Below, piece by piece: positions 21,008 to 47,797 of a stretch of DNA of 64,000 nucleotides (positions are counted from its first letter, which is position 1; every line of letters begins with the position of its first letter). The notes beneath the pieces are model-generated. The model had not been told where the DNA came from and searched no databases. It saw nothing but the letters and a program-made list of their open reading frames with translations. A program made the translations under genes and the position numbers. The DNA comes from Methanofollis sp. W23 (GTDB lineage Archaea; Halobacteriota; Methanomicrobia; Methanomicrobiales; Methanofollaceae): positions 930,001 to 994,000 of the forward strand of contig NZ_JAGGMN010000001.1 of NCBI RefSeq assembly GCF_017875325.1, in the 5' to 3' direction.

Positions 21008-23746
21008 ATGTCGACCAATGACTGCTATTTCAGGAGTCTGCAGATGAAGAAACTCTCAGCATATGAACTGGAATATCTTGAACACCCGGAACACTTCACC
21101 TTTGAATATTTCAGGGAGAAGAAACTCGATCCCCAGTCGGCGCCGGTCGCCCTGAGTCTTGCCGACGAAGAACTCCTCAACCACTATGACAACGACTACC
21201 ACAACCGCATTTATCATCACACCCTCTTTGCTCCCCAACTCGACACGGCGGGTTCTGCGTACCAGAACCTTGAGGAATATGTTGCAAAGATGTCTGTAGA
21301 AGTGCTCTCTGAGCGGATCACCGACGGACCTGACCAGGAATATTCCCTGGCAGAATATTCAGCATTCAGGAAACACCTGGTAACCGCCCTTCATACCTTC
21401 CCTGAGATCCAGAAGGCCCAGATCCTCAAAAAAATTTCTATAAAAAGTGGTCTGTCACCGACCGGGATCGACGAGAGTGCCCGGCTTTTTTCGGTGGGCA
21501 GTTCGCTCTTTGCCATGGAGTTCTATCTCGCCCTGAAGAAGGCGAAGAGGTGGGAGACCTTTCACCGGGCCTGGCCACGATCAGATCGAGACCTCCATGA
21601 GATCGCTGAAACGCCCGAGATCCTCCTCTCGCTCTGGGACCACCAGGTCAGGGCCCGTGACCGCTGGCTCGGTGCCGGCGGGAGAGGAGTGCTCGAGATG
21701 GCCACCGCCACCGGAAAGACCCTGGTCGGTCTTGCCTCGGCCTATCACCTCTTCAAAAAGTTCGGCTCTCTCCAGGTGCTGGTGCTCTGCCACTCGCGGG
21801 CGATCCTGAACCAGTGGCGCCGGGAGTCCATCGAAAAACTGGGGTTTGTAGGCGATCCCGACGACGATTATACCCACCCGGTCTCCTACCAGGGGAAGTT
21901 TGTGATCTCCTTTAACACCATCCAGAAGGTGATGAAAAATCCCGGAGGGTACCGGACCGACCTCCTCATCGTCGACGAGGTCCATCACGGCGCCGGCCTG
22001 AAGTTCAGGAGCGCCTTCGATGTTCCCTGCCGGTGGAAGATGGGGCTTTCGGCGACGGTGGAAGGACGGGAGCGGACCACGGTCCTGGACCGGTGCCTCG
22101 GAAAGACGGCCTTCACCTATACCCTGGCCGATGCACGGCGAGACGGGATCGTCCCTGAGTTCACCCTGACGATCCACAAGACCTTCCTCGACATCGCCGA
22201 GGAGGAAGAGTTTGTATCGATCACCGAGAGCATCAGAAAATCTCTGAACTTCATCAATGCCACCCAGACCAGGGAGATCCGTGCGCTCTCCGGCAACCGC
22301 CTGAACCGGTTCGAGAATCTCAGGGATTTTGTCCGCCTGATGACCGACCTCAGGTATCGCAGCAAAGATATCCCGGAAGAATGGCTCCAGTTGATCGGCC
22401 TGATAAACAAACGCCGGTGGGTCATCCACCGCTCGTCGCCCAAACTCGAAGAGGCGATCGCCCTCGCCCTGGACCTGGGCCGGACAAAGAAGTGCGTCCT
22501 CTTCGCGATGGATATTGCGACCTGCGAGACGATCTATGGACGGCTTTCTGGTTCGGTGCCGGCATTTCTCATTCATTCAAAATTAAAGGACATCGAGGTC
22601 AGGCATGCGCTCCAGAGGTTCAGGTCGGTCCAGAACGGCGTACTCATCGCCCCGAAAATGCTCGACGAGGGGATCGACATCCCGGACGCCGAGGTCGGGA
22701 TCAATGTGGCGTCCTCCAAGACCAAACTCCAACTCATCCAGCGCCTGGGCAGGATCCTGCGGAACCGGCCGAACAAGCGCCCGGTCTTCCACCATTTCGT
22801 CGCGGTCCCCCGCCAGTACATCGTCTCTGAGGACTCGTTCACATACCAGAACGACCTCGCCTGGATCACCGATGTGGCCCTGAAGATGGGCATCCCGATC
22901 ACAGAGACCGCCGACGAATCCGAGAACTTCTCCACATTTGAGCGCGAGTCAGAAGACGCCGTCCGCAACTACTATACTGGTCACGACCGCCTGGTGACCG
23001 ACGACTTCGGCGTGATCAAGGTCCGCACCATCGTCGACGCCATCCTCCCCGAGGCCCGGCACCGTCTGGTCCGCCTCCTCGGCGAGATGACCGGCCCTCT
23101 CACCGACGAGGAGTGGGCGCGGATGCTTAGGTCGGCGTACGGAGACGAGCAGATGCTTGAGATCCCGAGCCAGCGCTGGCTCTTGATCATCGCTGACCGC
23201 GACCCGGCCATGATCAGGGACCTGATCGTCAGATATGGGGGGGCTGATGAGGAGAGAACGGTGAAGGTGTCCTGTAGGACTCTTCAGGGTGAAAAGAAGA
23301 AATCAAAGCAGCAAAAATCCCGCAAGGGCGCTAAACGGTGTGTGTCATCAGGTTGTACACCTAAGGATCCTGTTGAACGAGCTATCATCTCGTTGAAAAG
23401 AAGTACTTCAGATAAGGAACAGAAAAAAGCAATGAAAACACTTCTCGAAATTGGTTCTCCTGCGGTCAATCTCTTGATTGACCTGATTAAGGATGAAAAT
23501 GTGGAAGTTCGGAAATGTGCGATTGCTGTCCTCAGTCAGATTGGTTCTCAAAGGGCTGTATCCCCTATACGTCCATACCTTCGGGATCCTGATCCCAATG
23601 TGCGGAAACAGGCTGTGTTGGCACTTGGCCGTCTGAATGATACTTATTCAAGGCGTATTCTAATGAAGATGCAGCGCGATCCTGCCAAACAGGTGAGAAA
23701 GGCAGCGGGAAGGGCGTTGAGGATGCTGCGGGGATATTATTGGTAA
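21008..23746 (+). CDS. XPB-like superfamily 2 helicase with C-terminal HEAT repeats
   Basis: This 912-residue protein has an N-terminal region of about 210 residues of unknown fold. A superfamily 2 helicase core follows: Walker A MATATGKTLVGLA near 232-238, DEVHH near 323-327, motif III GLSATVEGRERT, and in the second half LIAPKMLDEGIDIPDAEVG and QRLGRILRNRP. After a linker with acidic and Lys-rich segments, residues about 786-912 form HEAT-like repeats (VERAIISLKRS; PAVNLLIDLIKDENVEVRKC; VSPIRPYLRDPDPNVRKQAV). GC content falls abruptly at the repeat section (21 of 60 at 23401-23460 against 44 of 60 at 23041-23100 by hand count), so the tail was probably acquired separately. XPB-like helicases of this form are common in defence islands. 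Possible roles are DNA unwinding in repair or anti-phage defence. Confidence 0.8.
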   Translation: MSTNDCYFRSLQMKKLSAYELEYLEHPEHFTFEYFREKKLDPQSAPVALSLADEELLNHYDNDYHNRIYHHTLFAPQLDTAGSAYQNLEEYVAKMSVEVLSERITDGPDQEYSLAEYSAFRKHLVTALHTFPEIQKAQILKKISIKSGLSPTGIDESARLFSVGSSLFAMEFYLALKKAKRWETFHRAWPRSDRDLHEIAETPEILLSLWDHQVRARDRWLGAGGRGVLEMATATGKTLVGLASAYHLFKKFGSLQVLVLCHSRAILNQWRRESIEKLGFVGDPDDDYTHPVSYQGKFVISFNTIQKVMKNPGGYRTDLLIVDEVHHGAGLKFRSAFDVPCRWKMGLSATVEGRERTTVLDRCLGKTAFTYTLADARRDGIVPEFTLTIHKTFLDIAEEEEFVSITESIRKSLNFINATQTREIRALSGNRLNRFENLRDFVRLMTDLRYRSKDIPEEWLQLIGLINKRRWVIHRSSPKLEEAIALALDLGRTKKCVLFAMDIATCETIYGRLSGSVPAFLIHSKLKDIEVRHALQRFRSVQNGVLIAPKMLDEGIDIPDAEVGINVASSKTKLQLIQRLGRILRNRPNKRPVFHHFVAVPRQYIVSEDSFTYQNDLAWITDVALKMGIPITETADESENFSTFERESEDAVRNYYTGHDRLVTDDFGVIKVRTIVDAILPEARHRLVRLLGEMTGPLTDEEWARMLRSAYGDEQMLEIPSQRWLLIIADRDPAMIRDLIVRYGGADEERTVKVSCRTLQGEKKKSKQQKSRKGAKRCVSSGCTPKDPVERAIISLKRSTSDKEQKKAMKTLLEIGSPAVNLLIDLIKDENVEVRKCAIAVLSQIGSQRAVSPIRPYLRDPDPNVRKQAVLALGRLNDTYSRRILMKMQRDPAKQVRKAAGRALRMLRGYYW

Positions 23747-26487: not shown

Positions 26488-29400
26488 TTGAACACACTTA
26501 TCCAGATGGCAACAGTGGAACTGGCTCAGTTTCTCGATTCAAAATTGCCGGATCAATCATCAGACTGGTGGCAGCAAAATGTTGTTGAGCGTCTCAGTTT
26601 TCAGCAGCAGAGGATTGTAGAGGAGCAGGGCTATACTTCTCTCCGACAACTTGACTTTGCAGCGCTCTTGAGGGTGCTGGACCAGAACTGGTACGAACTT
26701 TCCACCACACTTCTCCTGCCCCGTGAAGGTCGAAGTTGGGTAAAGGAACTTCAGACCGTACGTAATAAATGGGCTCATCTATCTTCAGAAGCGATAGAAG
26801 CGATGCCCGTAAGCGAGAGGTATCGAGATGCAGATACTCTGGATCACCTTCTGATGATGATTGAGGCATCGGAAGATTCCCTGAAAGCGGTAGAATCATT
26901 CAAAGCGGCGGCAGTCAGTGCAATGGCAAGAGCCAATTCTGGTGATACCCCGGCACCTGTCCCATCATCAAGCACACTGTCTTCGTGTGAACATCCTGAT
27001 GTTCCTGTACCTGATACGAATGTTCCTCTTCCTCTCGCTTCGAAGTTCCAGGTGGGTAATCTGGTCTCCTTGCGTTCGAACCCCGAAAAAGTGGTGCCAG
27101 TGATCGAAGTTATCCCTGGTGGCGGCGAGTGCCGTTATCGCGTTTTTCAGGATTCTAACGTGGCTACTTACTATGAAAGCCAGTTAGAAACAGTATCTAG
27201 CGCGAGTGATGATCGCAAGATTTTGACGGCCAGTGAAGTACACGCCTATCTGACAAGCATCCAGATCCTGTCACCTTCTACTGCCAACCTCTTTTCTCTG
27301 CGTGCGGGACGGGTTCAGTTTGTACCATACCAATATCGACCCGTCCTGAAGATGATCCGGGCCGACCGTCCTCGCCTCTTGATCGCTGATGAAGTAGGAG
27401 TTGGCAAAACCATTGAAGCGGGCCTTATTATTAAGGAACTGCAGGCAAGAATGGATCTGTCCTCTGTCCTGATCATCTGTCCCCGGGCACTTGTCGCTGA
27501 ACGAAAGTGGGATCTGGAGATGAAGCGTTTTGATGAAGACTTCACTACTCTCAACGGAGATCTTCTCAGACATTGTCTTCAGGAAACTTCTGTTGAAGGA
27601 GAGTGGCCTGAGAAGTACGCAAAGGCTATTTTGCCTTTTTCACTCTTCGACCAAAGACTTCTGTTCGGATCCCAGCGGTCGGGTCGGCAGAAGAAACAGG
27701 GTTTACTGGCTCTTGATCCCCCACCGAAATTCGATCTGGTCATCGTTGACGAAGCCCACCACATACGAAATCCAGAGACCTATCTGCATCAGGGAATACG
27801 TTACTTCTGCGACAATGCCGAGGCCGTTCTTTTCCTCACTGCCACACCTGTTCAACTGAGCAGCCAGGATCTCTACACCCTGCTCAATGTATTGAGACCC
27901 GACCTGGTAATTGACTCGGTCAGTTATGACCAGATGGCAGAGCCGAATTTTTATATTACAGAGGCGGCGCAGTTCTGTCGCAGAGGGGAGGAAGGCTGGC
28001 AGGAAAAAACCCTTTCCTCCCTCGACAAGACTGCCCAGACCACATGGGGTCGATGGTTTCTGCGAGAATCAGTTGAATTCCAGACAGTCTATGATCGTCT
28101 GCAGGAAAAAATGCTCACTGATACTGACAGGGTTCAACTGACCCGTTCTGTCGAAGAACTATATACATTCAGTTCGATGATCAACCGTACTCGCCGGCGT
28201 GATATCGGGGAATTTACCACACGTAAACCTGAAACAGTGATCGTCGAATTTACCCTTGCACAACAGGAGCTTCATGACAGTCTTCTCGACATAATCAAGC
28301 GGATCTTATCCTACAGCCACGACCAACAGAACGTAAAGTTTATGATGACGACTATTCGCCGGCAAGCGGCGAGTTGTCTCTATGGGCTGGCCCCACTCCT
28401 CGAAGACATCCTGAATGGTCACCTCGACAGACTTGAGTTTATGGAGGTGAGTGACAGTGATGATGAACCTGATCTAGGCTTCATTGACGTGTTGCGAGCA
28501 GACATTGAGGTTTTGCTGGAGAAAGCCCGGAATTTAGATGATCATGATCCCAAAATCGAGGCTTTTGTCAGGATCATCACAGAAAAGAATACCTTGCCAA
28601 ACAATAAAATTTTGGTTTTCAGCACATTCCGCCACACCCTGATCTACCTGACCGAATATGTGAAACACACGGAACTACGCTATGGACTGATTCATGGTGA
28701 TGTCCCTGATGAAGAACGTGCTGATCTGCGCCGCCGGTTTGCTTTACCCAAAGAAGACCCTCTGGCCATCGATATTCTCCTGTCTTCGGAGGTGGGTTGT
28801 GAAGGTCTTGACTTCCAGTTCTGTGATTTCCTCATCAATTATGATATCCCATGGAACCCTATGCGAATCGAACAGCGTATCGGCCGTATCGATCGCCACG
28901 GGCAGAAGAGCGAGACTATCGCCATTGTCAACTTTGTCACACCTGGTACCATTGATGCTGAGATCTACGTGCGTTGCTTATGGCGTATCGGTGTTTTTCA
29001 GCATTCTGTTGGGGGGAACGAGGAGATCCTTGGGGATATCACCCGAAAAATCCACGAAATTGCCGATCGGTTTTCCCTGACCGAGGAAGAACGCGAAAGC
29101 AGGCTTCGCCAGCTTGCAGACAACAGCATCCGCCGGATCCAGGAGGAACAGGAACTTGAAACAAGACAGTCCGAACTGATCGGACTGAATGTTCCAAATC
29201 ACACTTGGCTTCAGGAAATCGAGGAAGCTGAAAGTTACTGGTTATCTCCTGAAGGGATTCAGCAGTGTGTATCAAGTTATCTCGCAGCACGGGTTGGCAC
29301 TGAAACAGAGCACCTGCTTGGAGAAAAGGCAAACAAGACTTTACGGCTCAATATAGAGGCCAGATCTAGATTGCTCGATGATTACAAACGTCTGCCTCGC

Positions 29401-30084
29401 TCTTCAGAACCTGTCGCTCGAGAGTGGGAGAAGTGGCTCAAGGGCGATCAGCCTACATTGTCAGTAACCTTTGATCAAAAAGCAGCGGTGGAGGATACAA
29501 AAATTGTGTATCTCTCAGTAGTCCACCCGCTGGTCAGGCAGGCGGCCCATTTCCTACAACCCGGCCAGGTGGTCTACACTATGCTTTCTGCGCAGAGTGC
29601 AGAGGCCTCACCTGGCACCTATCGTTTCGGGATTTACCTCTGGAAAAAGCAGGGCGTGAAGCCCGATGAGGAACTCGTCCCGGTGGCTTCTGATCCAGCG
29701 ATTGAAGGAGTCATGCTTTCGATCCTGCGGTCTGCTACAGAACTCAAAGATGCCCAACTCCTTGACCCTGTTGAATTCGACGCTTTAGAGGCCAGACACT
29801 ACACCAAGTGGAATGCTGCACGGGCGGATCACATTGCCGAAAACCGTCAGCAGGTCGAGCACCGGATCCAGAGCTTGAATGTGAGTCATCAGGCACGATG
29901 TAAGACAATTAAGGACCAACTCGAGGGAACCTCGAATGAGAAGATCAGGTTGATGAAACAGGGCGAACTGACAAGAGCGAACGCTGATTTTGAGAGGCGT
30001 ATGAAGGATCTTCGACAAGCAGCAAGCAGCGGGGACATCCACGCCACTGCGGTGATGTTTGGGATCATTCAGATTCAGGAATGA
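26488..30084 (+). CDS. SNF2-type helicase with N-terminal Swt1-like HEPN domain
   Basis: This 1198-residue protein starts with an Swt1-type HEPN region: residues about 1-140 including VRNKWAHLSSEAI and RYRDADTLDHLLMMIEA, with the RxxxxH-like core RNKWAH at 92-97. A low-complexity Pro/Ser linker follows, then a RapA/DrmD-like SNF2 helicase: DEVGVGKT at 301-308, DEAHH near 421, LTATPVQLSSQD, and EQRIGRIDRHGQ near 794. The last ~250 residues form long helices. The start is TTG 26488 behind GAGGAG; ATG 26506 is an alternative. HEPN domains can be RNases, so the protein could couple DNA translocation to RNA cleavage or bind a partner through HEPN. It forms a low-GC block with the next gene. Confidence 0.82.
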   Translation: MNTLIQMATVELAQFLDSKLPDQSSDWWQQNVVERLSFQQQRIVEEQGYTSLRQLDFAALLRVLDQNWYELSTTLLLPREGRSWVKELQTVRNKWAHLSSEAIEAMPVSERYRDADTLDHLLMMIEASEDSLKAVESFKAAAVSAMARANSGDTPAPVPSSSTLSSCEHPDVPVPDTNVPLPLASKFQVGNLVSLRSNPEKVVPVIEVIPGGGECRYRVFQDSNVATYYESQLETVSSASDDRKILTASEVHAYLTSIQILSPSTANLFSLRAGRVQFVPYQYRPVLKMIRADRPRLLIADEVGVGKTIEAGLIIKELQARMDLSSVLIICPRALVAERKWDLEMKRFDEDFTTLNGDLLRHCLQETSVEGEWPEKYAKAILPFSLFDQRLLFGSQRSGRQKKQGLLALDPPPKFDLVIVDEAHHIRNPETYLHQGIRYFCDNAEAVLFLTATPVQLSSQDLYTLLNVLRPDLVIDSVSYDQMAEPNFYITEAAQFCRRGEEGWQEKTLSSLDKTAQTTWGRWFLRESVEFQTVYDRLQEKMLTDTDRVQLTRSVEELYTFSSMINRTRRRDIGEFTTRKPETVIVEFTLAQQELHDSLLDIIKRILSYSHDQQNVKFMMTTIRRQAASCLYGLAPLLEDILNGHLDRLEFMEVSDSDDEPDLGFIDVLRADIEVLLEKARNLDDHDPKIEAFVRIITEKNTLPNNKILVFSTFRHTLIYLTEYVKHTELRYGLIHGDVPDEERADLRRRFALPKEDPLAIDILLSSEVGCEGLDFQFCDFLINYDIPWNPMRIEQRIGRIDRHGQKSETIAIVNFVTPGTIDAEIYVRCLWRIGVFQHSVGGNEEILGDITRKIHEIADRFSLTEEERESRLRQLADNSIRRIQEEQELETRQSELIGLNVPNHTWLQEIEEAESYWLSPEGIQQCVSSYLAARVGTETEHLLGEKANKTLRLNIEARSRLLDDYKRLPRSSEPVAREWEKWLKGDQPTLSVTFDQKAAVEDTKIVYLSVVHPLVRQAAHFLQPGQVVYTMLSAQSAEASPGTYRFGIYLWKKQGVKPDEELVPVASDPAIEGVMLSILRSATELKDAQLLDPVEFDALEARHYTKWNAARADHIAENRQQVEHRIQSLNVSHQARCKTIKDQLEGTSNEKIRLMKQGELTRANADFERRMKDLRQAASSGDIHATAVMFGIIQIQE

Positions 30085-30087
30085 GAT

Positions 30088-30210
30088 ATGAGAGGGGAAA
30101 AACCGTATTACAGTTTTTACGTTTCAATCAGGGAGCCACGTACTGAGAATGAACATTTTGAATTCAGAGTCTTTCAGTTGACCCAGAGTGAAGAACATGA
30201 GAGTCAGTGA
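30088..30210 (+). CDS. possible 40-residue small protein between helicase and ATPase genes
   Basis: The ATG lies 4 bp after the helicase stop and the frame ends at TGA 30208-30210, overlapping the beginning of the ATPase gene. The translation looks protein-like (EKPYYSFYVSIREPRTENEH, then FEFRVFQLTQSEEHES) and is acidic at the end. It could be a small subunit or simply a coupling leader that brings ribosomes to the ATPase start. Support is limited to position, overlap and residue composition. Confidence 0.35.
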   Translation: MRGEKPYYSFYVSIREPRTENEHFEFRVFQLTQSEEHESQ

Positions 30211-33200
30211 TCAACAGAATTACATTACACAAATACGGAATGATTTTGAAGCAAGTCAGCGTGTCAAGGACAGCCTAAATTCTTCAATTCATGCCCTTGC
30301 TGACGATTTATACAGCAAGGATACCCATTTTATCTTTGAGTTAATCCAGAATGCAGAAGATAACTCATACAATGTATTGGAGCCATCTCTGTCCTTTCAA
30401 TTGGTGAGATCTGATCCGACCGGGACGCCGGTTTCAGATGGAGCGTTGATCATTCAAAATAACGAGGTCGGTTTTTCCTCAGAAAATGTGAGTGCGATCT
30501 GTAAGGTCGGTCAGTCCACAAAGACTGACAAGACCCAGGGATATATTGGAGAGAAGGGGATTGGTTTTAAATCCGTATTCAGGGTGACAACAGATCCTCA
30601 TATTTTTTCCAACGGCTACAGGTTCCGCCTGCCTGAGCATGACGAGAAAACAGAGTTGGGATATATCGTGCCCCTATGGGTCGATGAAATTCCTGACAGT
30701 CTCAATACATCCGGGACTACGATTATCCTGCCCCTCAACAAAAGTGATTTTTCTTATGAATCCATCGAGAAGATGCTCAGAGATATCGATCCGGTAACCG
30801 TTCTATTCCTGTCGAAACTGAAAAAAATAGTTATAGAAACAGAAACTGGGTACAGGCTCTCGATACGGAAAGATGATAGCAGAGCACCGTGTGTTCAGGT
30901 TATAGTCGAAGGAAATGATCAGGGAGATTCATTCCAGCGCACGCAAGAATTCATCGTGCACACCAGATTGTTTCATAAACCAGACAATATTTCCTCAGAA
31001 AAACGAAACCGGATTGATGAAAGAGACGTTTCAATTGCCCTCCCCCTTGATAACGAGGCCCGAAGTGCCGGCAAGGTTTTTGCCTATCTTCCCGTGCATG
31101 AAGATACTGGCCTGCCATTCCTGCTCAACGCCGATTTCTTGCTGTCAAGTTCCCGCGAGGCCATCCATGAGGGTGACCCATGGAACCAGTGGCTTCGAGA
31201 TTGTATTCCTGAAGTCTTTGTCGAGGCATTTGAGAGATGTCTGGATATCGATGAATTCCGCGAGAGAGCTTACGGTTTTATTCCCCTTGAATCCCATGCG
31301 ACATTCTTCGAGCCTGTCGTGAGCTCAATTCAGAACGCATTGAGTGATCGAGAAATTGTTCTGACTGAGCCTGAAGGGAAAAAGTGCAAGCCCTCGGAAG
31401 CATGGACTGCGGGAAAGAACTTCCGTTCTTTGCTTTCAGAACAGTCGTATCCAGAGGCATTATTAACTACCCGGCTTGTTCTGCAGGGAATTGAGAAATA
31501 TAAAAAACAACTTCAGTTTATCGGGGTCAGTGGTTACACAGTCGATATTGTCAGGCAGTGTTTTCTGGACAGAGAGTGGATAGAAGAGCACGATATTGAT
31601 TGGATAATCAAGAGTTACCAGTATCTCTCATCTCAAAAGAGCCTCTCAAAAGACACTTTGGCAGGTTGTCCAATTGTTCCGGTAGAGACAGAAAGCGGCA
31701 CACGCTTTTCCTGCGATAGCGAGCAGCCAATCTATTTTGAGTGCGATGATGAATGTGAGAAGATATTAGGCGATGTCCCCAAGTGTGCTCGGGTAAAACT
31801 GGCCTTTTTGCAGAAGGAGTTTTACACCAGAGTAAAGGATAACACAGAGATCTGTGAATGGATGAGTAAAACACTGGAGATTCATCCATTCTCAAAGCAA
31901 AATTATGCAATAGATGTCCTGCAGTGGTTAAAAAAGCATTATCAAGAGATATCTGATGATGACCTTGTATCTGCAACGATCTTTCTCTCGCAGTTCGCCA
32001 GCACTGATATTGATTTCACAGATATTCCTGTATTGCTCTCAGATAACAGGAAGATGCTGCTTTCACAGGCGAAAGCTCTGCATGAAATTCAGGTAGTGGT
32101 AACACCGGAAGCACTTGACCCTGAAACAGGATGGCAAAATATCTTTGCGACAGAAGAGGATAGGAAACATCTTGTCTCACTTTCGGACCATTACATTAAA
32201 AATAGCAATGATGGGGATTCATCTGCCGACCTTGAAAAATTATGGTCTAGAATTGGAGTTACATGCTATCCTTTACCTATAATACACGAGGACGATGAAT
32301 ATGGTACACTAACAAAATACGAAGATGAACATATTAATGATAATTATTCACTATATAAAAAATGGATATCCAATTGGCGGCCATTTGAATCCTTGAAATC
32401 ATTTCAAACGCTTGATGAAATTGCAAAGATCAGATTTTCACAGAGTTTAATCAACTGGTTGAAGCATCAAAATAAGAATACACCATGGTTGCAGACCATA
32501 GTAGAGTATTTCTACTATTCTCAGAGAGTATCAAGATACGATTCCGAAATTGTTTTCGCGCTAAAAAATACTTCCTGGCTACCCACAACAAAAGGTTATG
32601 TTCGTCCTGACCAGGCGTTCCTTCCTCTCCCGCAGATCCGAGAAATTTTCGGTGATACGGCCCCGTATTTTGAGGACGAACTTCCCGAACATGTTGTTCA
32701 ACTCCTTGGAATCAGGACACAGGCAACCGCCGGGGAATTGATCACCCTCCTGGAACAGAAGTCGCACGATGGATCTGGATCAAGAGATTTTGCAGAGAGG
32801 GTGTACCGATATCTTGCCTCTCTCAATCTTGATTTTGAGCTGACCCAACGATTCAAAAAAGGCAATCTCATCCTTATACCTCAGGAAGCAACAACTCCAA
32901 GATGGGCTTCAGTTGATCAAGTTATCTGGAATGATCACAGTGAGGTGCTGGGTGACGAGTTCTTCTACCTCAAAAAATACTATCCAGATCTCGAAAAATT
33001 CTTTGTAGAGACCCTCTCTGTCAAGAAGGATGTTGACACCGAATGTTTTGCCCGGCGGTGGTTGTGCCTTCAGAACGAATCGAACCGTGACAATCAGAGA
33101 ACCGAAAAGATTCTGACCACGATTTATCAGAGGATTCGTCATGTCTGCACAATGAGTAATCAGAAACGCCCGGCTTGGTGGGATGAATTCAAGCGCGAAG

Positions 33201-34645
33201 TGAAAGTATGGACCGAAAATTCAACTTTTGAACAACCGGCATCGGTTTATATCCCTGATGACGGCGAGTTGAAACAGATCTTTCAAAACAATGAGATCGA
33301 CCTGGTATGGTATCCCCACAGGGCCTCTCATTTAGATTGGGAAAATGTGTGTCAGACCCTTGGACTCAGATATCTTTCAGATGCATTAACCTGCTCAGTG
33401 GCGGGCAATGCAGAGTACGTACCCAGAACCAAACCTGAACTGCTGACCGATCCCGCAAAAATCCTCATTGCAACCTGGATCTTTGAGAAATATCAGAATG
33501 ATTACAAAAAATTGCTCGATAGAGATGTTCTTGGATCGCTCCTGAACACGACCGAGGCTCTGACCGATGACCTGAATGTGATCTATTGCTTAGAATATAC
33601 CAAGGTCAAAAAGTCTTGCGATGCATTCTGGGATGTCGATTCAGGCAGGCTACTAATTTCAAAGACCTCATGTGGGCGCACCAAAAACGCTGTTGCAAGG
33701 GCACTTGCTCGCGGGTTAATGCCGAACCATGCCTCCATGGAATTATCTAACTGGATCGAACTGGTTCTTGGAGAGGATGATTGGGAATTCAGAATTCAGG
33801 ATAATAATTGGAACATCCCAGATGAGATCAAGGAGTGGATGGATTCCCGGAGAGAAGATCAGATTGTCCTCGTTCCAGAACCCGAGACTCCCGGGATGAC
33901 CGATAGAGGTCAGGATGAAAATATACCCTGTCCCCCCCCTGCAGAGGCTGTATCCACAGGAATCCTTTCCAGCGAAGGGAGCGCCCCGACATATCATACC
34001 CCCAGCGACAGAACTGCAAACGATGACCTCAGCCAGAATTATGGTGATGGGAGTTATGAAGGAATGAAATCGCCGTCTTGCTCGGGGTCGGGGACGAATC
34101 AGCCCCTGGTGGAGCATCACAATCCTCTGGTAGTTGAACTTCCAGAACATGAGTCCCGTCATCCAGATTTCAGGGCCACACATGTTGAACAGATGGCTGC
34201 AAACGCTCCACTCCGGATCTCTGAAGTGCGAGAACGTTCAGTATCAGTAGGTCTGGATGACGTCAAACTGGAAGCTGAGCAATATCTCCGCGACCAATAT
34301 ACAAATGAAGACGGTGTGATGATCTGTCAGATCTGCAAAAACGTGCTTCCCTTCAAACTTGACGATGGATCCTACTATACAGAGAAGGTTGAATTTTTAA
34401 CCGATCTGAAGAAACGTCATTATCAGAACTATCTGGCGTTATGCCCCAACCACAGTGCGATGTTTCAACATGCGAACGCATCGCGTGATGTGATGGGGGA
34501 GTTGTTTGAAAAGATGCAGGGGAATGAAATGGAGATCGTTCTTGCGAAGAAACCCAGAAAACTCTATTTCACGAAAACCCATATTGCGGACCTAAAGGCT
34601 GTGATCGCCTCTGAAAAATCATCACATGGAGAGGAGCAAGATTGA
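30188..34645 (+). CDS. giant sacsin-type GHKL ATPase with C-terminal Cys/His domain
   Basis: This 1485-residue protein has an N-terminal HSP90-like (sacsin-type) ATPase: DTHFIFELIQNAEDNSY near 46-62, then GYIGEKGIGFKSVF near 118-131 and the YLPVHEDTGLPFLLNADFLL region near 300-320. The middle 900 residues have no motif I can name. A Ser/Pro/Asp-rich linker (about 1225-1340) leads to a terminal domain with CQICKNVLPF (about 1379) and ALCPNHSAMF (about 1417), giving C-x2-C and C-x2-H pairs like an HNH or zinc-finger nuclease module. Start candidates are GTG 30188 and ATG 30197. Large ATPases of this kind occur in archaeal and bacterial defence islands. Pairing with the HEPN helicase suggests one system. 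Confidence 0.8.
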   Translation: MKNMRVSDQQNYITQIRNDFEASQRVKDSLNSSIHALADDLYSKDTHFIFELIQNAEDNSYNVLEPSLSFQLVRSDPTGTPVSDGALIIQNNEVGFSSENVSAICKVGQSTKTDKTQGYIGEKGIGFKSVFRVTTDPHIFSNGYRFRLPEHDEKTELGYIVPLWVDEIPDSLNTSGTTIILPLNKSDFSYESIEKMLRDIDPVTVLFLSKLKKIVIETETGYRLSIRKDDSRAPCVQVIVEGNDQGDSFQRTQEFIVHTRLFHKPDNISSEKRNRIDERDVSIALPLDNEARSAGKVFAYLPVHEDTGLPFLLNADFLLSSSREAIHEGDPWNQWLRDCIPEVFVEAFERCLDIDEFRERAYGFIPLESHATFFEPVVSSIQNALSDREIVLTEPEGKKCKPSEAWTAGKNFRSLLSEQSYPEALLTTRLVLQGIEKYKKQLQFIGVSGYTVDIVRQCFLDREWIEEHDIDWIIKSYQYLSSQKSLSKDTLAGCPIVPVETESGTRFSCDSEQPIYFECDDECEKILGDVPKCARVKLAFLQKEFYTRVKDNTEICEWMSKTLEIHPFSKQNYAIDVLQWLKKHYQEISDDDLVSATIFLSQFASTDIDFTDIPVLLSDNRKMLLSQAKALHEIQVVVTPEALDPETGWQNIFATEEDRKHLVSLSDHYIKNSNDGDSSADLEKLWSRIGVTCYPLPIIHEDDEYGTLTKYEDEHINDNYSLYKKWISNWRPFESLKSFQTLDEIAKIRFSQSLINWLKHQNKNTPWLQTIVEYFYYSQRVSRYDSEIVFALKNTSWLPTTKGYVRPDQAFLPLPQIREIFGDTAPYFEDELPEHVVQLLGIRTQATAGELITLLEQKSHDGSGSRDFAERVYRYLASLNLDFELTQRFKKGNLILIPQEATTPRWASVDQVIWNDHSEVLGDEFFYLKKYYPDLEKFFVETLSVKKDVDTECFARRWLCLQNESNRDNQRTEKILTTIYQRIRHVCTMSNQKRPAWWDEFKREVKVWTENSTFEQPASVYIPDDGELKQIFQNNEIDLVWYPHRASHLDWENVCQTLGLRYLSDALTCSVAGNAEYVPRTKPELLTDPAKILIATWIFEKYQNDYKKLLDRDVLGSLLNTTEALTDDLNVIYCLEYTKVKKSCDAFWDVDSGRLLISKTSCGRTKNAVARALARGLMPNHASMELSNWIELVLGEDDWEFRIQDNNWNIPDEIKEWMDSRREDQIVLVPEPETPGMTDRGQDENIPCPPPAEAVSTGILSSEGSAPTYHTPSDRTANDDLSQNYGDGSYEGMKSPSCSGSGTNQPLVEHHNPLVVELPEHESRHPDFRATHVEQMAANAPLRISEVRERSVSVGLDDVKLEAEQYLRDQYTNEDGVMICQICKNVLPFKLDDGSYYTEKVEFLTDLKKRHYQNYLALCPNHSAMFQHANASRDVMGELFEKMQGNEMEIVLAKKPRKLYFTKTHIADLKAVIASEKSSHGEEQD

Positions 34646-34991: not shown

Positions 34992-37900
34992 TCACCACCA
35001 CGCTGTAATATCTCCCCGCTTCTGCCGTTCCTTCTGGTCCAGTTCCTTCCCCACCCCTTCGAACCGGATCCCGATCCTGGTCCTGCCCGACGCCGACCTC
35101 TCCTCAGTGAGAATATGGTTGACCGGGAAGAACTCCCGCACATCTGCACCGATATTATGTCCAGAGCAGATGATCTGGACATTGTTGCGCTCAAGGATCG
35201 ACCCGATCTTCTCCCAGAGATAGTGTGCCCCCGTCGACCCAAAGGGATTGTCGATGATGAGCACCTTTGCGGTCTTCATATCATACCGGTCGACGACGAT
35301 ACTCCGGATCGCAGACATGAGGGTCACCAGGAAGATGATATACATCGTATTCTCCTGGCCGTCAGAGGCCTTGACCTGGTCCCACTGTTGAGGGCGGTGA
35401 GAGCTTACATCGACCTTGCGGATCTTGACGCGGATCTGCCCCATGTCCAGCACCCGACCCACCAGCTGGTCTGGCATGAGTGCCCTCTCCACCTCTTCTG
35501 GCCCGAGTTTCTCGGTCTGGATATGATGGGTGAGGTCCTGGATGTACTGGTGCATTCTTCCTTCTGCCACCTCACCGGTGTATGCGCATGTGTCGAAGTT
35601 TATCTGCACCATCTCGTACGTCCGCCCGTCGATCTCGATCTTCGAGGCTGCCGGGAACGTCTTCAGGTACTCCAGGTATTGCATCGCCATGCCAAGGGCC
35701 TGGACAACGATCTTGGTCTGGGCCGCGAGCAGCCCGTCCATCATCCTTGTGGTCATGGCGATCTCTGAGATGATCATCTCGGCACCATCGTCCAGGCCTT
35801 GCCGGATAGCGATCGCCTCCTCAATGGTCTCCGCCACCCTGAATTTTCTCTTTATCTCCTCTATGTGCCCTGAGACAGCCGTGACCCCGGTGAGGTCGTC
35901 GATGACCTGCTCCTTTGTGGCTCCCAGTTTTTTCTTGCGTTTTGTGATCTCTGTGTGGTGTGATGCAAGTTCCTCCTGGAGGGATTTGTAGGGGACCAGG
36001 GCGCCGGCCTGGAGAGGAACTCTCCCGGCAAAGTGGTAGGTGTCATTGAGCACCTCATAGCCCCGACACTGAGTCTCCAGCTCTCTCTGTCCGTTTTCCG
36101 CCTCTGTGTATGCAGCACGGAGGGCCGTGATCTCGTCATGGGTGTGCACACGTAGATCCTGCAGCCGGTTCAGTTCGGCCTGATATGGCGAGGCGTCGAG
36201 GAGAGCCAGGTCTCTGCTATAGGGCGTGGGTGCGTGGCTGTTGAAGTCGGTCTCCGCCTTCTCCATGTCGATGGACTTGAGGCGGTGCTCCCCCTTTGCA
36301 GCCTCATGCCGTTCGGCCGCCTCCTCAAGGTATTTTTTGAGGGTCTGCACCCTCTCTTTGAGTTCCTCGATGGTCCTTGAGGGGATGGGCTCGTGCGGAT
36401 CTTCTGCTTCGATCTCGGCGAGGGGGATCTCTACCTTCTTGATATCATCAAGAGCATCTTTGGCCTGTTTTCTCCATATGGCGATCGTATCCTGAACCTG
36501 GTTGAGATCTCCGGCAACGCGCTGGAGCACCTGCTCTGCCGCCTGGTACTCGGCCCTGAGCGGGAAAATTTCCACCCCATGGAGGACCTCGACCCCGTCA
36601 CGATCATATTTCTCGTATTCTTCGCACTCCTTCTTCACCGCACGGAGGTGCCCCTCCAGTTGCCGGATTGAAGCCTCTTTCTCTTTCAGTTCAAGGGTGC
36701 CCTCGTCGATCCTGGCCCGGGTCTGTTGCTGTGCCTCCTCGCACGTTTTCTTCTGCAAAATTCCCTGCTGTAGATGAGCCGAGACCTCCTTCATCTTCTC
36801 TGAGGTTGCAAGGATCTCTGTGAGCAGGAGACGCTTTTTTTCGAACTGATCGATATCCTCATTTTTCTTTTCCAGGCGTGCCTGCAGTTCGGGGAGGGCA
36901 TGGTGGTCTTCATCGATCTTTTTTCTGAGCGTGGCATGCCGTGAGACCTGTGCATCACGTGCCTGTACATCCTCCTGGAGTGCGGCCTCTCGTTCCTCCC
37001 GGTATCCTGGAGAGAACCGGGAGGTGAATTTTGCGAGGGCTTTTCTGTCGTGTTGCAGTCCTTCCACCCTCTCCTCGGTAAGAGTGCATTCCTCCTCGAC
37101 CCTGGCGATCTCTTTTTTGAGGTGTGCCGCCGCCCGGTCGCTCTCGAGGGCATGGAAGGTGTGTTCCGGTGGCCTTGACGGGATACAGACGTCTCCAGAG
37201 GTGAGCATTCTCTTCTCCCTGAGATGGTCGAAACTGGTGAGGATGACCCGGGCGTCCTGGACACGGGCAGGGAGAAGAGATGGATCCTTGGCAATGGCCT
37301 TGTAGTCCCCGTGAAGCAGGAGGATGGCCTTTGGGAGCCAGGGGGCGTTGGCCAGGTCTTCTTTTCTTCTCTCTTCAGGGGAACTCTTCAGGTACTTGGC
37401 CCCGCTCATGGCGGTCGGATAGTGCTCACGCAGACTTTCGAGGGCGTCCAGATATTCCTGCCCCGGGACGACACCATATTTCTCTGCGGCCTTCAGGTTC
37501 CCGATCAGGGAGGCATGATTTGACTTCAGGTCTGCGAGTGATTCCTGCAGCTGAACGACCTGCCCGTCGAGGTGAGTGATGCAGGGCTCGACCTCGCCCA
37601 TCTCATAGAGGCCGGCGATCTGGAGGGCTTCCTGTTCCATGTCAGTATAGGTCTCCAGGTCAACCTTCACCCGGGCGATCGCTCCCTCAAGAACTGTGAT
37701 CTGACCGTTCAACCCTTCTACCAGACCTTCGTTCCTGTGGAGCCGCTCTTTTCTCTCCTCGATCGCTGCAAAGAGATCAGCACACGCCGCACGCTCACGC
37801 TCGATCCGTCTCCCGGTGGCCTCGATGAGGCCAGGGACATGTACCGAGAGACCTGCGTCGACCCTGGGACACCCCTCATGGCGCTGGCGAAGGTCTGCCT

Positions 37901-39383
37901 CCCGCTCTTCGAGGTCGGTGACCTGCTGCCTGCGATCGGCAATGTCCTGTTCATATCCCTGTACCCGCTCCATGACGCGGCCAAGGTTCTGCGCAAGGAT
38001 TTTGTTTTTCTCTTTGAGGACGGCCGCCTCCTCTTCTTTCCTCTGCAGCCGTTCGACGACCTTCTGTTTTTCCTCTGCAGCATGGACATAGAGCGTCTTT
38101 CCAAGGAGACGGACCCTGGAAAAGATTTCCTCGTGGTCGCGTGCGGTGTTCTCGATGATCTTTTCGTTCCTTTGGATCTCTTCCAGGGCCTTCCTGTACC
38201 CGAGATATTTATTCACCGCCCATGAAAAGTCCACCTTCTTTTCCTGTTCTTTCACCGCCTCAGCACGTCGTGCCCTCTCCTCCTCAGCCCGCTTCTCGGC
38301 CTTCCTGAGGAGGTTGACCTCAACATTCAGGATGATGAGCCCGTTCCTCTCGATCTCGGTGTCCGTGGCCTGGAGTGCCGCCTCTTTTTCCGTGCACTTC
38401 TCCTTGAGTCCACAGATCTCCTCCTCCTTATGGACAAGGGCATCCTGGTGTGCAGCATACTGCGATGCGGCCGTCTGTTTCGAAGCCTCGAAGGCCTGGA
38501 ACGAATCGATCAACTCCTGGTTTGTCTCCTGCAGCGTGGTGACCCCGGCATGGAGGCGTTCAAAGTCGTGTAGTTGACTCTGCTTCTCCTGCAACTCTTT
38601 GAGCTGGTTCTGGGACTGGCAGAGTGCGTCGGCAAGCGCTTTCGTGCTCGACTCGTCTTTCTTCTCCCCGGTGATAAGAGCCTGCCTGTCCTGGAGGCAC
38701 CGGTCGACCGTCTGGATCAGGAGTTTTTCCACCAGTGACCGTGAGGTCTTGAACTCCCTGAAATATGATTTCAGGAAGTTTTCCTGCCTGTTGATCTCTT
38801 TGATAAATCTCCATTCAGATTCCAGGAGGCAGTATCTCTTGAGCCGTTCAAGATACTCTCTCCTGTTCCTGGCGATCCAGATGTCATGGTCTTTCTTCTC
38901 CTTGAGCATCTTCCTGGTGTCGGCATAGTCCCTGACCACAAACTCGCCTTTCTCTCTCCAGCAGAGGGGGATTTTTTCGAGGTCGAGATCGTTTGGCCCG
39001 TTATAGAGGTGGAGATATGAAAAATATTTGATCCCGTCGTCATTTCCCTCTTCGTCCGGGTCAGACTGCCGTTTCGCACAAAAACCGGTCAGAAGATATT
39101 TCTCATCTGCAATCTCCTTTTCCAGTTCCCACTCGGCAAGGATATGGGTGGTGCGGTTCGGGTCCCCGCCGCGGAACATGTCCTTGAACGGATGGTTTGG
39201 GTCGAGCGAGGCATTGGGGAGGACACACTGGAGCATGAGCATCAGCAGGACCGATTTTCCGCCACCGTTTCTCAGTTCGTAGGTGGCGTTCCTGCCAAAG
39301 AAGGGCATCCGAAAATCTTCGAATATGCTCTTCCCGTCGTCGAACTGGGCATTGATGATCCGTACCTGGCGGAGTTTAGGCAT
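34992..39383 (-). CDS. jetC: Wadjet JetC, SMC/MukB-like ATPase
   Basis: This 1463-residue SMC-like protein has Walker A NGGGKSVLL (about 39-47) in the N-terminal head and two long coiled-coil arms with a hinge region between (coiled coil roughly 220-470 and 800-1250). The C-terminal head carries Walker B KVLIIDNPFGSTGAHYLWEK (near 1370-1390). In Wadjet it is the motor that extrudes plasmid DNA for cleavage. ATG 39383 is chosen because it overlaps the jetB stop by 8 bp; an upstream in-frame ATG at 39407 adds 8 residues. It is the last gene of the operon. Head sequences resemble the type III-like branch by my reading; subtype is inference. Confidence 0.85.
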   Translation of the reverse strand: MPKLRQVRIINAQFDDGKSIFEDFRMPFFGRNATYELRNGGGKSVLLMLMLQCVLPNASLDPNHPFKDMFRGGDPNRTTHILAEWELEKEIADEKYLLTGFCAKRQSDPDEEGNDDGIKYFSYLHLYNGPNDLDLEKIPLCWREKGEFVVRDYADTRKMLKEKKDHDIWIARNRREYLERLKRYCLLESEWRFIKEINRQENFLKSYFREFKTSRSLVEKLLIQTVDRCLQDRQALITGEKKDESSTKALADALCQSQNQLKELQEKQSQLHDFERLHAGVTTLQETNQELIDSFQAFEASKQTAASQYAAHQDALVHKEEEICGLKEKCTEKEAALQATDTEIERNGLIILNVEVNLLRKAEKRAEEERARRAEAVKEQEKKVDFSWAVNKYLGYRKALEEIQRNEKIIENTARDHEEIFSRVRLLGKTLYVHAAEEKQKVVERLQRKEEEAAVLKEKNKILAQNLGRVMERVQGYEQDIADRRQQVTDLEEREADLRQRHEGCPRVDAGLSVHVPGLIEATGRRIERERAACADLFAAIEERKERLHRNEGLVEGLNGQITVLEGAIARVKVDLETYTDMEQEALQIAGLYEMGEVEPCITHLDGQVVQLQESLADLKSNHASLIGNLKAAEKYGVVPGQEYLDALESLREHYPTAMSGAKYLKSSPEERRKEDLANAPWLPKAILLLHGDYKAIAKDPSLLPARVQDARVILTSFDHLREKRMLTSGDVCIPSRPPEHTFHALESDRAAAHLKKEIARVEEECTLTEERVEGLQHDRKALAKFTSRFSPGYREEREAALQEDVQARDAQVSRHATLRKKIDEDHHALPELQARLEKKNEDIDQFEKKRLLLTEILATSEKMKEVSAHLQQGILQKKTCEEAQQQTRARIDEGTLELKEKEASIRQLEGHLRAVKKECEEYEKYDRDGVEVLHGVEIFPLRAEYQAAEQVLQRVAGDLNQVQDTIAIWRKQAKDALDDIKKVEIPLAEIEAEDPHEPIPSRTIEELKERVQTLKKYLEEAAERHEAAKGEHRLKSIDMEKAETDFNSHAPTPYSRDLALLDASPYQAELNRLQDLRVHTHDEITALRAAYTEAENGQRELETQCRGYEVLNDTYHFAGRVPLQAGALVPYKSLQEELASHHTEITKRKKKLGATKEQVIDDLTGVTAVSGHIEEIKRKFRVAETIEEAIAIRQGLDDGAEMIISEIAMTTRMMDGLLAAQTKIVVQALGMAMQYLEYLKTFPAASKIEIDGRTYEMVQINFDTCAYTGEVAEGRMHQYIQDLTHHIQTEKLGPEEVERALMPDQLVGRVLDMGQIRVKIRKVDVSSHRPQQWDQVKASDGQENTMYIIFLVTLMSAIRSIVVDRYDMKTAKVLIIDNPFGSTGAHYLWEKIGSILERNNVQIICSGHNIGADVREFFPVNHILTEERSASGRTRIGIRFEGVGKELDQKERQKRGDITAWW

Positions 39384-40125
39384 CGTCTCCCTCCCCGACC
39401 TCGCCAAGCCCCTCGATAAATGTCCTCAGGTCGGTCTGGACCTCCTCGTTGCTGTAGATCTCGGCGATGATCGCCTTGCACCGTGGGGTGAGGTAGACGG
39501 CGTCGTCGTGTTCCCTGACAAGCTGGTTCTTCTCCATGAACATGATGGTGCTGTTTACCAGGGCGTGCTTCGAGCCCGAGCCCCGCTGTTTGATCTTGTC
39601 GCTCTCGTCTGTTCTGAATTCAGACGGGGGAAGTCTGTCCCAGAGGTCGGCGATCACCTTGAAGTTAAACTGGTAGTCTTCGCTGGTTTTCTCCAGGTAT
39701 TCGAGCGCTTCCATTGCCTTCATCTTCTTCTCCACCACCTCGATGAGATGCTTTTTCGGCACCTTCTCCAGATAAGGCTCGTGGGCGGAGTCCTGGTAGA
39801 ACTCGGTGATGAGGACATGCATGATAAAAAAGACCGTGTACATCTCGGGGTTGTTGAACCCGCTCCCGAGAGCCTGTTTGATCTCGGTGTTTGAGAGGCC
39901 AAAGACCGGGTTATGTATCCCGGGACTGAGATAGAGGGCGTCGTGATGTCTGCACAGGACCAGTCGCTGTCCCTTTGCGCAGAAGGCCAGCGCCTCCCTC
40001 ACCTCGGCCTCCTGCTCGTACCGCAAAAATTCCCCTGGATGGTCGGAGCGTGTGAGCGACCCGTTCTCCAGGATGCAGTAGAAAATCTCCAGGGCGACCC
40101 CGAGGTTCTTTTCGTCAAACTTCAT
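39376..40125 (-). CDS. jetB: Wadjet JetB (MukE/ScpB-like kite subunit)
   Basis: This 249-residue protein is all-helical with winged-helix-like segments (MKFDEKNLGVALEIFYCILE, then EAEVREALAFCAKGQRLVLC) as in DUF6063-type JetB. It starts at ATG 40125, which lies inside the last codons of jetA (11-bp overlap), and ends 8 bp inside jetC, so translation of all four genes is coupled. The protein would bridge JetC and JetA. An upstream start at 40149 adds 8 residues that only read the jetA end in another frame. The length and place match the family. Confidence 0.78.
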   Translation of the reverse strand: MKFDEKNLGVALEIFYCILENGSLTRSDHPGEFLRYEQEAEVREALAFCAKGQRLVLCRHHDALYLSPGIHNPVFGLSNTEIKQALGSGFNNPEMYTVFFIMHVLITEFYQDSAHEPYLEKVPKKHLIEVVEKKMKAMEALEYLEKTSEDYQFNFKVIADLWDRLPPSEFRTDESDKIKQRGSGSKHALVNSTIMFMEKNQLVREHDDAVYLTPRCKAIIAEIYSNEEVQTDLRTFIEGLGEVGEGDDA

Positions 40126-41659
40126 TCTCTTGTTCTCCCATAAAGTCAAGATGAGAGACGTACACGTCTCTTTCGTCGGTGAGCCGCACCCTGACGTCGG
40201 GTCTGGACCGGACTCTGATCACGTCGATGGCCGCCTGCTTCTCGGCCGCGGCCGAGACCAGAACCTTCTCGATGGGGCTCAGTCGGTCTTCTGGTGCGTG
40301 GAGGTCGAAGACGGTCTCGTAGGCTTCTTTCTCTTCCTGCCGTACGCCCCGATTCAGTTCGATCAGGAAGGGGATGAGGTCGATGTGGTCCATTCCTTCG
40401 TCGCCGTACTGTTCCAGGATCAGGTCCAGGAACGCGGGCAGGTCGAGGGTTCCGCCGGCGGCCTCGAGCCCCTCCACCAGGACCGACGCATAGAGGGTGA
40501 AGGCCGTGCTCTGCCGTTCATGCACGATCTTGTCAGGGGACTTCGTGTCGCCCCAGTCTTCCTCTGCCACCCGCGTCTCTGTGGTCCCGGTCTTTTTCCC
40601 GATGATACTCTGGGGCTCAAAGAGCCTGTAGAGGCTGAAGGTTTTCCTTGCGTTTGGGAGGAGGAGGGGGAGCATCTCCACCACGTGCACGTCGTTTGGA
40701 AGGTTGGCCTGGACGTGGCTTTCAAGCATCTGTTGGAACTTGTAGCGGCGGTCAAAGAGCGAGTGCAACCTGATCTGTGTGATCCGTTTATATTCGGCAG
40801 GGATCCCGGTGTAGTCTTTGAGGAGGGTGTTGTGGAGTTTGTAGCCGTAGTCCAGTTCGTCTGCGAGTTTTTTGATGACGATGAAGTCCTCTTCTTCCCC
40901 AAATGACGCCGCATGATCGGTGACCTGCGTGGCATCGTCTGAGAGTTCCTGGAGGGTTGCCCTGACCTGCCTGAAGAGTTCATCTTCCTGTTCAAGCTGG
41001 GAGATGACGTCCCTGGTGTAGTCAGTGAATTTTTTCACGACGTCGGGGTCGCCGAAGATCATGCTGTCGAGCAATGCCTGTTTTTTCCCTTTTTTCCGGT
41101 GGACCTCGAGGTTGAGGTCACGCACCGTCTCAAGGGCGTTTCTGAATGCACCGCTCTCGATCTGCTTTTTAAAGAGGATGAGGGTGACCGTGACCCTGGA
41201 CTCTTCAGGGAGTTCTTTGATGGCGATCATGAACTCAAGCCCGGCGTCGGTGATCTCATATGCCCCTTCGTTCACGTCGTACCTCACATAGTGGACATAA
41301 CGGTCGACCTGCTGCTGTCTCACCGGGTCAAGGTACTGAAAGTCGTAGAGTTCTCCTCCAGGGGTGGTCTCAAGGATTCCGAGTACCGTCCGCGTCACTG
41401 CCCGGTCGTCAAATTTCCGCCTGGGGTACATCTCCTCCATCATCCCCATGACATATCCCTGGATCTCTTCGGGCGGTACCATGCGTCCCTGGAGCCGGCC
41501 CTTCTCGATGAGAAATGTCAGCACACCCAGGCCGAGGTAGAGGGCGTCATAGTCCAGGTTCCTGACCGAAGGCGAGGTAAAGGCCTTAAAGAATGGATAG
41601 AAGCACACCAGGTGCTCCATCCGTTCGTTGATCTCTTTACAATGTCTTTGATAGTCCAC
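40115..41659 (-). CDS. jetA: Wadjet JetA (MukF-like kleisin)
   Basis: This 514-residue protein has an N-terminal winged-helix region (PFFKAFTSPSVRNLDYDALY, LGVLTFLIEKGRL), a helical middle (EEDFIVIKKLADELDYGYKL) and a C-terminal domain (IDVIRVRSRPDVRVRLTDER). This fits DUF5716-type JetA, the kleisin that links the two JetC heads. It overlaps jetD upstream by 23 bp and jetB downstream by 11 bp. A second Met at position 14 is a possible start, but ATG 41659 gives the better N-terminal helix. Confidence 0.8.
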   Translation of the reverse strand: MDYQRHCKEINERMEHLVCFYPFFKAFTSPSVRNLDYDALYLGLGVLTFLIEKGRLQGRMVPPEEIQGYVMGMMEEMYPRRKFDDRAVTRTVLGILETTPGGELYDFQYLDPVRQQQVDRYVHYVRYDVNEGAYEITDAGLEFMIAIKELPEESRVTVTLILFKKQIESGAFRNALETVRDLNLEVHRKKGKKQALLDSMIFGDPDVVKKFTDYTRDVISQLEQEDELFRQVRATLQELSDDATQVTDHAASFGEEEDFIVIKKLADELDYGYKLHNTLLKDYTGIPAEYKRITQIRLHSLFDRRYKFQQMLESHVQANLPNDVHVVEMLPLLLPNARKTFSLYRLFEPQSIIGKKTGTTETRVAEEDWGDTKSPDKIVHERQSTAFTLYASVLVEGLEAAGGTLDLPAFLDLILEQYGDEGMDHIDLIPFLIELNRGVRQEEKEAYETVFDLHAPEDRLSPIEKVLVSAAAEKQAAIDVIRVRSRPDVRVRLTDERDVYVSHLDFMGEQENEV

Positions 41660-42731
41660 AGGCCTTCATCCTCCTGAGGTCGACGGCGGTGAGAACCTCC
41701 TGCGGGAGATATCTCTCCTCTGTGATGATCCACTCGATCGCCGCCCTGCTCTCGTCGTCGAAGGCGTCGATGAAGGGGGAGAGTGAAATCTGACCTCTCT
41801 TCTGGTCGTTCCTGAGAGGGCGTGCATTCCGGTATCCCGCCTTCTTCAGGACGGCGGTGTAGAGGGAGGTGGCTGGCCTGATGCCATAGTTGGGGTAGCG
41901 TGCCTGCAACCGGTTGAAGATGGCGATGCCCTCCCTGTCGATGTCTCCAAAATAGACGTACCTGTCGTCCAGGGTTCCGCCCACGGTCTCGATGTACTCG
42001 AATTTTTTCTGGATCGCGTTCCCCTCGCCGTAGATGACCAGGTTGATCCCGTCGACCTCGCCAGCGGTCACCGCCTGCTGCATGGTCCAGAAGGTGTCCT
42101 TGTTCTCGACGATCAGGACCGTCCTCTCTGTCGTCCCTTCCAGCGCGCCGAAGTCCTTCTCAAAATAGAAGAATGGTTCATACACCTTCTTCGCCCTGAT
42201 GTCTCCAAGCGTCAGACCGAGGTTCCTGAGCACCGCCTCGCCGTCGACCGCGGCGTGCCGGGGTGCATCGATCGCCTTCTCGTCGCCGAAGATCTCGTAG
42301 GAGCGTTCGTTGACGGTCAGCACCTCGTCGTCGTCATCTTCGATCATGTCCCTGATCCTGAGGATGGCGTCCCGATCCCTGCGGTAGTCGTCTGCGTGGT
42401 GTGCGTAGTAATCGATGGAGATCGGGGTGGGGAGGGAGAAGAGTTCGCTTCGGTGCTCTGCGGAGAGGGGTGCCTCCTCTTCGGTGAGCAGGTCCCGGCG
42501 GAGGGTATATTTTGCCGGCAGCCCTCCGTACTCGATGAGCGGCCGTGCGCTCTTGAGCGGGACCAGCACGCCGGCTTTGATGAGGTTTTGGACCGTGCGT
42601 ATGAACTGCTTCTGCTGTTCGGTGTCGGTGAAGAGGTGGATCCCTGCGTCTTTGAGGAGGATGTCCATGTCGTGGAGGGCGATTCGTTTGTTTTTATGGT
42701 GGAGGAGGAGCGTCCGGATCTGGTCGTGCAT
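41637..42731 (-). CDS. jetD: Wadjet JetD, Toprim nuclease subunit
   Basis: This 364-residue protein has an N-terminal winged-helix DNA-binding part (MHDQIRTLLLHHKNKRIALH) and a C-terminal topoisomerase VI-like Toprim domain. The acidic residues appear in TVLIVENKDTFWTM (near 205-215) and YVYFGDIDREGIAIFNRLQ (near 257-275), the Glu and Asp-x-Asp of the Toprim fold. In Wadjet it cuts looped plasmid DNA. ATG 42731 is chosen; the frame is open to 42872, but those 47 residues have no domain character. It is the first gene of the operon, giving the order D-A-B-C. Confidence 0.83.
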   Translation of the reverse strand: MHDQIRTLLLHHKNKRIALHDMDILLKDAGIHLFTDTEQQKQFIRTVQNLIKAGVLVPLKSARPLIEYGGLPAKYTLRRDLLTEEEAPLSAEHRSELFSLPTPISIDYYAHHADDYRRDRDAILRIRDMIEDDDDEVLTVNERSYEIFGDEKAIDAPRHAAVDGEAVLRNLGLTLGDIRAKKVYEPFFYFEKDFGALEGTTERTVLIVENKDTFWTMQQAVTAGEVDGINLVIYGEGNAIQKKFEYIETVGGTLDDRYVYFGDIDREGIAIFNRLQARYPNYGIRPATSLYTAVLKKAGYRNARPLRNDQKRGQISLSPFIDAFDDESRAAIEWIITEERYLPQEVLTAVDLRRMKACGLSKTL

Positions 42732-43632: not shown

Positions 43633-43651
43633 TGTATTATACTCTATATTG

Positions 43652-47796: not shown

Positions 47797-47797
47797 G

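Follow-up and report, generated by a model that had tools for sequence, protein, structure and literature searches.

A Swt1-HEPN–SNF2 protein and a sacsin-type ATPase form a conserved two-gene unit that is probably an undescribed anti-virus system

Sacsin-type ATPases are found in bacterial defence, as in Tiamat, and in human disease (ARSACS). Tiamat is regarded as a single-gene system, whose protein TmtA is a sacsin-type GHKL ATPase. In other prokaryotic loci, GHKL ATPases occur with SF2 helicases in restriction operons, where they were proposed to act as DNA-looping engines (Iyer et al., 2008, PMC2292703). In one group of these MORC/paraMORC operons the helicase is of the SNF2 type, often with an HNH nuclease gene, and the operons spread laterally. 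In VcSduA, a Shedu protein, the GHKL domain is proposed to control the nuclease (PMC12137116). On the helicase side, DISARM DrmD and RapA-type SNF2 helicases combine an SNF2 core with a C-terminal extension, and a fusion of Swt1-HEPN to a SWI2/SNF2 ATPase, WQE_15321, was listed in 2013 (PMC3710099).

The window, a stretch of 64,000 nucleotides from the archaeon Methanofollis sp. W23, contains two neighbouring genes, hereafter A and B, that combine elements of these systems. The features of the locus are the following:

26488..30084, + strand: gene A, HEPN(Swt1)-SNF2 protein, 1198 aa, TTG start
26518..26862, + strand: Swt1-like HEPN RNase domain of A, aa 11-125, Pfam HEPN_Swt1 8.1e-15
27373..28902, + strand: SNF2 motor core of A, aa 296-805, Pfam SNF2-rel_dom and Helicase_C
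30188..34645, + strand: gene B, sacsin-type GHKL ATPase, 1485 aa, GTG start
30308..30637, + strand: GHKL/HSP90-like ATP-binding core of B, N-box E51..N55..D58, GxxGIGFK 121-128
34250..34621, + strand: C-terminal HNH-fold zinc domain of B, aa ~1355-1478, CQxC 1380-1383, CPNH 1419-1422, H1465
34992-42872, - strand: type III Wadjet JetABCD, downstream of the pair and on the opposite strand
43649-55614: type 3 BREX (BrxF, BrxC, PglXI, helicase, PglZ, BrxA), beyond Wadjet

The original prediction had described two co-directional open reading frames 103 bp apart, with a GC content below that of both flanks and with Wadjet and BREX as neighbours. All of this holds: A and B have GC contents of 49.8% and 44.7%, against 57.0% and 56.5% in the left and right flanks, and the neighbours are a type III JetABCD and a type 3 BREX. 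Upstream of the pair (window 21008-23746), a 912-aa protein partially matches PADLOC PbeA models.

Domains of the two proteins

Protein A joins a Swt1-type HEPN RNase domain to a RapA/DrmD-type SNF2 motor. Its HEPN motif, R92-N-K-W-A-H97, is an intact R-x4-H and agrees with the R-x4-6-H pattern of HEPN ribonucleases within the Pfam HEPN_Swt1 match. Among HEPN-bearing relatives, R92 and H97 are nearly invariant in a pattern R-N-x-W-A-H. The domain is present in 31/31 aligned full-length A proteins, and the start residue of A is common to full-length relatives. The motor contains a Walker A motif DEVGVGKT, a DEAH box and the motif RIEQRIGRIDR, and the SNF2 motifs are conserved in relatives. RapA is the nearest solved protein to this motor (PDB search, 3.6e-32), while the best defence models are those of DrmD (PADLOC, 1.3e-112; NCBIfam, 326 bits versus a cut-off of 610). 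With the DrmD and RapA-type helicases, A has in common both the SNF2 core and the extension C-terminal to it. The architecture of A is that of WQE_15321; the passage that lists this protein does not mention a sacsin partner (PMC3710099).

Protein B is a sacsin/HSP90-type GHKL ATPase with intact ATP-binding motifs. It matches Pfam SACS (5e-13), NCBIfam P_loop_sacsin and, over aa 10-1224, PADLOC TmtA (2.3e-150). The N-box E..N..D and the glycine-rich lid of GHKL ATPases are both found in B; across 82 B sequences, E51, N55, D58 and the GxxGxGFK lid show little or no variation. Structure prediction for a relative of 1024 aa (mean pLDDT 85) gave a model that matches HSP90, MutL, sacsin SR1 and GyrB, the search with this whole relative reporting the GHKL part only, since matches to that one domain fill the list.

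The last 141 residues of B were modelled alone, using 36 sequences (pLDDT 93). The resulting domain matches the HNH nucleases TagI (Z 7.1), EcoKMcrA (Z 6.8) and Cap5 with scores of intermediate strength, but almost all of the top rows are HNH enzymes. In addition, the sequence profile of the domain matches EcoKMcrA (6ghc) with E=5e-8. The HNH fold is retained, and so are its structural zinc ligands (CQxC and C..[CH]), whereas the general-base and metal-ligand histidines, whose roles have been described for TagI (PMC6212794), are absent: in the 36 aligned B sequences, these positions are mostly V/C/N/I and A/S. Because the catalytic histidine positions are mostly replaced, the C-terminal domain is most likely an inactive HNH of the McrA kind, used for binding; an active HNH nuclease in B was rejected on the same grounds. 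The archaeal relatives L029 and L030 retain one or more of these catalytic histidines. Hence, the terminal Cys/His domain first proposed for B keeps its conserved zinc pairs and is now identified as a catalytically dead HNH domain. The RNKWAH and DEVGVGKT motifs singled out together with these Cys/His pairs are also present, and all are kept in relatives. Beyond the dead HNH, H1465 (window 34580-34582), which is not an HNH catalytic position, is found in 36/36 aligned sequences.

Pairing of the two genes across genomes

Relatives of A were sought by scanning 84,980 genomes with a profile of the helicase only, which gave 80 loci. These belong to archaea, Pseudomonadota, Planctomycetota, Actinomycetota, Bacillota, Bacteroidota, Cloacimonadota, Thermodesulfobacteriota, Nitrospirota, Armatimonadota, Fibrobacterota and others; the pair occurs in twelve or more phyla of bacteria and archaea. 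Addition of archaeal and plasmid loci brought the set to 95 A copies (L052 is a duplicate of L028). B lies directly downstream of A, on the same strand, in 81 of these 95 copies, far above chance, and this adjacency is not built into the sampling, since the scan made no use of B. Elsewhere than in the window, most pairs overlap, the commonest gap being -4 bp (a 4-bp overlap). Among the 14 exceptions, six are at or near contig ends, five form a divergent plasmid clade (L053-L057) and three are split, broken or reordered: A is split, with no B, in L107; L116 is broken, with a fragment of B; and B is upstream of A in L132. The protein distances of A and B are correlated (0.605), the maximum over 500 permutations being 0.256. 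Overall, it is strongly supported that A and B are a conserved, co-inherited, near-obligate two-gene unit, as had been anticipated from the window. The converse case, that the genes would rarely be adjacent elsewhere, fails because the pair is near-obligate, co-inherited and widely spread.

The distribution is patchy within the genus: of 11 other genomes, only G233 carries a relative of A, and this relative is distant. Some A relatives are plasmid-borne; a plasmid search with B as query returned nothing at 1e-30. In Phycicoccus elongatus (L125), two identical helicase copies are found in tandem, with B coming after each of them, the second B being cut by the locus end.

These data bear on a first alternative, in which B would act by itself as the defence protein of Tiamat (TmtA), A being an accessory neighbour. 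TmtA models match all of the scanned B relatives (38/38), with little else matching, and the relationship between B and TmtA extends along most of B. However, Tiamat has no SNF2 partner, while copies of A without B are hardly ever seen. Moreover, only helicase-linked B proteins carry the HNH-type domain, a part of B that the TmtA match does not reach. The domain occurs in 67 of the 81 B ORFs linked to the helicase, most of the others being truncated, and is absent from 11/11 sacsin-type ORFs without helicase in the archaeal phylum of the window, as judged with a profile trained on bacterial B proteins linked to the helicase; these helicase-free proteins have different C-terminal ends. B is a relative of TmtA, not simply a copy, and we regard the single-gene explanation as rather unlikely. 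Our results suggest that tools labelling B “Tiamat” may overlook half of a two-gene unit.

Relation to described systems and proposed function

The pair resembles the MORC/paraMORC operons in associating a GHKL ATPase with an SF2 helicase (PMC2292703). There, the GHKL protein is MORC-like with an S5 domain, whereas the ATPase of the present pair is of the sacsin type and has a dead HNH fused to it; a methylase is not consistently present with A and B. HEPN-SNF2 fusions (2013) and GHKL+SNF2 restriction operons (2008) were already known, and the novelty initially claimed for the locus has to be narrowed to the specific pairing of a dead-HNH sacsin-type ATPase with an SNF2 motor, which we did not find described. 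As expected from the original prediction, no match to the pair as a two-gene system was found in PADLOC, NCBIfam or the literature searched, which covered few subscription papers.

The pair is probably an undescribed two-part anti-virus system, a role that we infer from its context and composition. More specifically, we favour, although with reserve, a reading in which A and B are subunits of one DNA-surveillance module, probably antiviral or anti-plasmid, working as a clamp and a motor with an optional HEPN RNase output. The pairing, the correlated A and B distances, the conserved motifs, the GHKL fold, the HNH fold with its lost catalytic positions and its link to helicase adjacency, the patchy distribution, the plasmid relatives and the adjoining Wadjet and BREX all point in this direction. 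On the other hand, the defence-island signal outside the window is modest: with PADLOC, few of 82 near neighbours at other loci were matched, and the commonest family matched three proteins. This neighbour test, modest and without a control set, is not taken as strong support. The defence role first proposed is therefore backed by the neighbours in the window and less by those elsewhere.

In the surveillance module, B would bind invading DNA, using its dead HNH for docking or sensing, and would close as an ATP-driven clamp. B may then load or license the SNF2 motor of A, which would track along double-stranded DNA. The motor-clamp complex could bring HEPN domains together, leading to RNA cleavage and to dormancy or abortive infection. 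DNA binding, clamp closure and HEPN activation are proposed here by analogy, the model following the reading of GHKL and SF2 helicase operons (PMC2292703) and the proposal made for VcSduA (PMC12137116). In the latter, a GHKL module is likewise proposed to govern nuclease output in phage defence; unlike the A-B pair, VcSduA is a single protein with a PD-(D/E)XK nuclease and no motor. More tentatively, the pair may be a widespread, undescribed immune system of two components. An SNF2 motor armed with an RNase would be licensed by a sacsin-type ATPase clamp whose dead HNH, of the McrA kind, serves as the reader, converting DNA sensing into RNA cleavage; in a sister clade, the motor would have exchanged its HSP90-like partner for an Hsp70/actin-like ATPase. 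For sacsin-type ATPases in general, a fixed partner that is a DNA motor, with an RNase domain in about two thirds of cases, offers a concrete and testable mechanism.

Alternatively, A and B could be a stress or transcription-recycling pair, made of a RapA-like motor and a chaperone, with no immune role. This would fit with RapA as the closest solved relative of the motor and with the HSP90-like nature of B. Yet the pair is patchy in the genus and has plasmid-borne relatives, an HEPN RNase is fused to the motor, and defence genes adjoin the pair in the window, so that such a role appears unlikely.

HEPN variation and accompanying genes

The HEPN domain is missing in 31 of 96 A sequences, about a third, a few of these being truncated, and its state changed on the A tree by at least eight gains or losses. 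HEPN is therefore an optional accessory, and RNA cleavage cannot be the sole output of the system. Consequently, the core of the system is the SNF2 motor plus the GHKL ATPase. The parts originally listed (HEPN, DNA translocase, HSP90-like ATPase) are all there, but HEPN is not obligatory and the parts are related to the known defence proteins DrmD and TmtA. A separate HEPN gene that would substitute for the fused domain in HEPN-less copies was seen in L107 only. According to the surveillance model, versions lacking HEPN would rely on their motor, either by itself or together with nucleases or helicases encoded as separate genes in the vicinity.

The persistence of pairs without any HEPN also weighs on the idea of a regulated toxin unit, with the HEPN-SNF2 protein as a toxin held inactive by B as a chaperone-like antitoxin. 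HEPN toxins with a partner gene are known (PMC3710099), B is HSP90-like and the genes overlap in most relatives, as if translationally coupled. Nevertheless, toxins and antitoxins seldom reach 1200 and 1500 aa, which, together with the HEPN-less pairs, makes a toxin unit quite improbable.

No third obligatory gene was found, since no cluster of the 889 neighbouring ORFs is present in more than about 10 loci; in the same clustering, neither a methyltransferase of a restriction-modification system nor any gene of the DrmA, DrmB or DrmC type is a recurrent neighbour. That the locus is a DISARM derivative or a degenerate DISARM, with DrmD represented by A, is very improbable and membership in DISARM is rejected: although DrmD models are the best for the helicase and the relative L029 adjoins a DrmA gene, A differs from DrmD by its N-terminal HEPN and by a score below the NCBIfam DrmD cut-off, and when the genome was searched with one DrmA model, the matches were weak and limited to short stretches.

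Several loci have additional genes next to the pair. A RecD-like SF1 helicase is found after or before it in several of them; in L064 (16797-20669), L124, L126, L128, L130 and L133, the pair is immediately followed by a RecD/Pif1-like SF1 helicase of 1200-1290 aa with a long N-terminal region. In a rhizobial/sphingomonad clade (L050:8286-8840, L051:8291-8821, L108, L109 and L114), a gene of 176-184 aa located immediately 5' of the helicase resembles, by eye and with no Pfam match, a small ECF-type sigma factor. In the archaeal loci L027 (1375-5813) and L030 (12690-17128), what appears by eye to be a gene pair for a phosphoesterase and an SbcC/YhaN-like ATPase is immediately 5' of the helicase. 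In L029 (G091:C1:831000-850900), the pair precedes a short UvrD-like protein and then a DrmA/YprA-type helicase, an arrangement that recalls an ARMADA/DISARM-like layout with a sacsin ATPase.

Finally, in the divergent plasmid clade, the sacsin-type ATPase is replaced by a protein of 513-744 aa (L053:11970-13733, L054:12227-13996, L055:6437-8671, L056:12043-13584 and L057:11900-13513). From its phosphate motifs alone (DFGTSS, DVGAST), Pfam having found no family, this partner looks like an Hsp70/actin-type ATPase.
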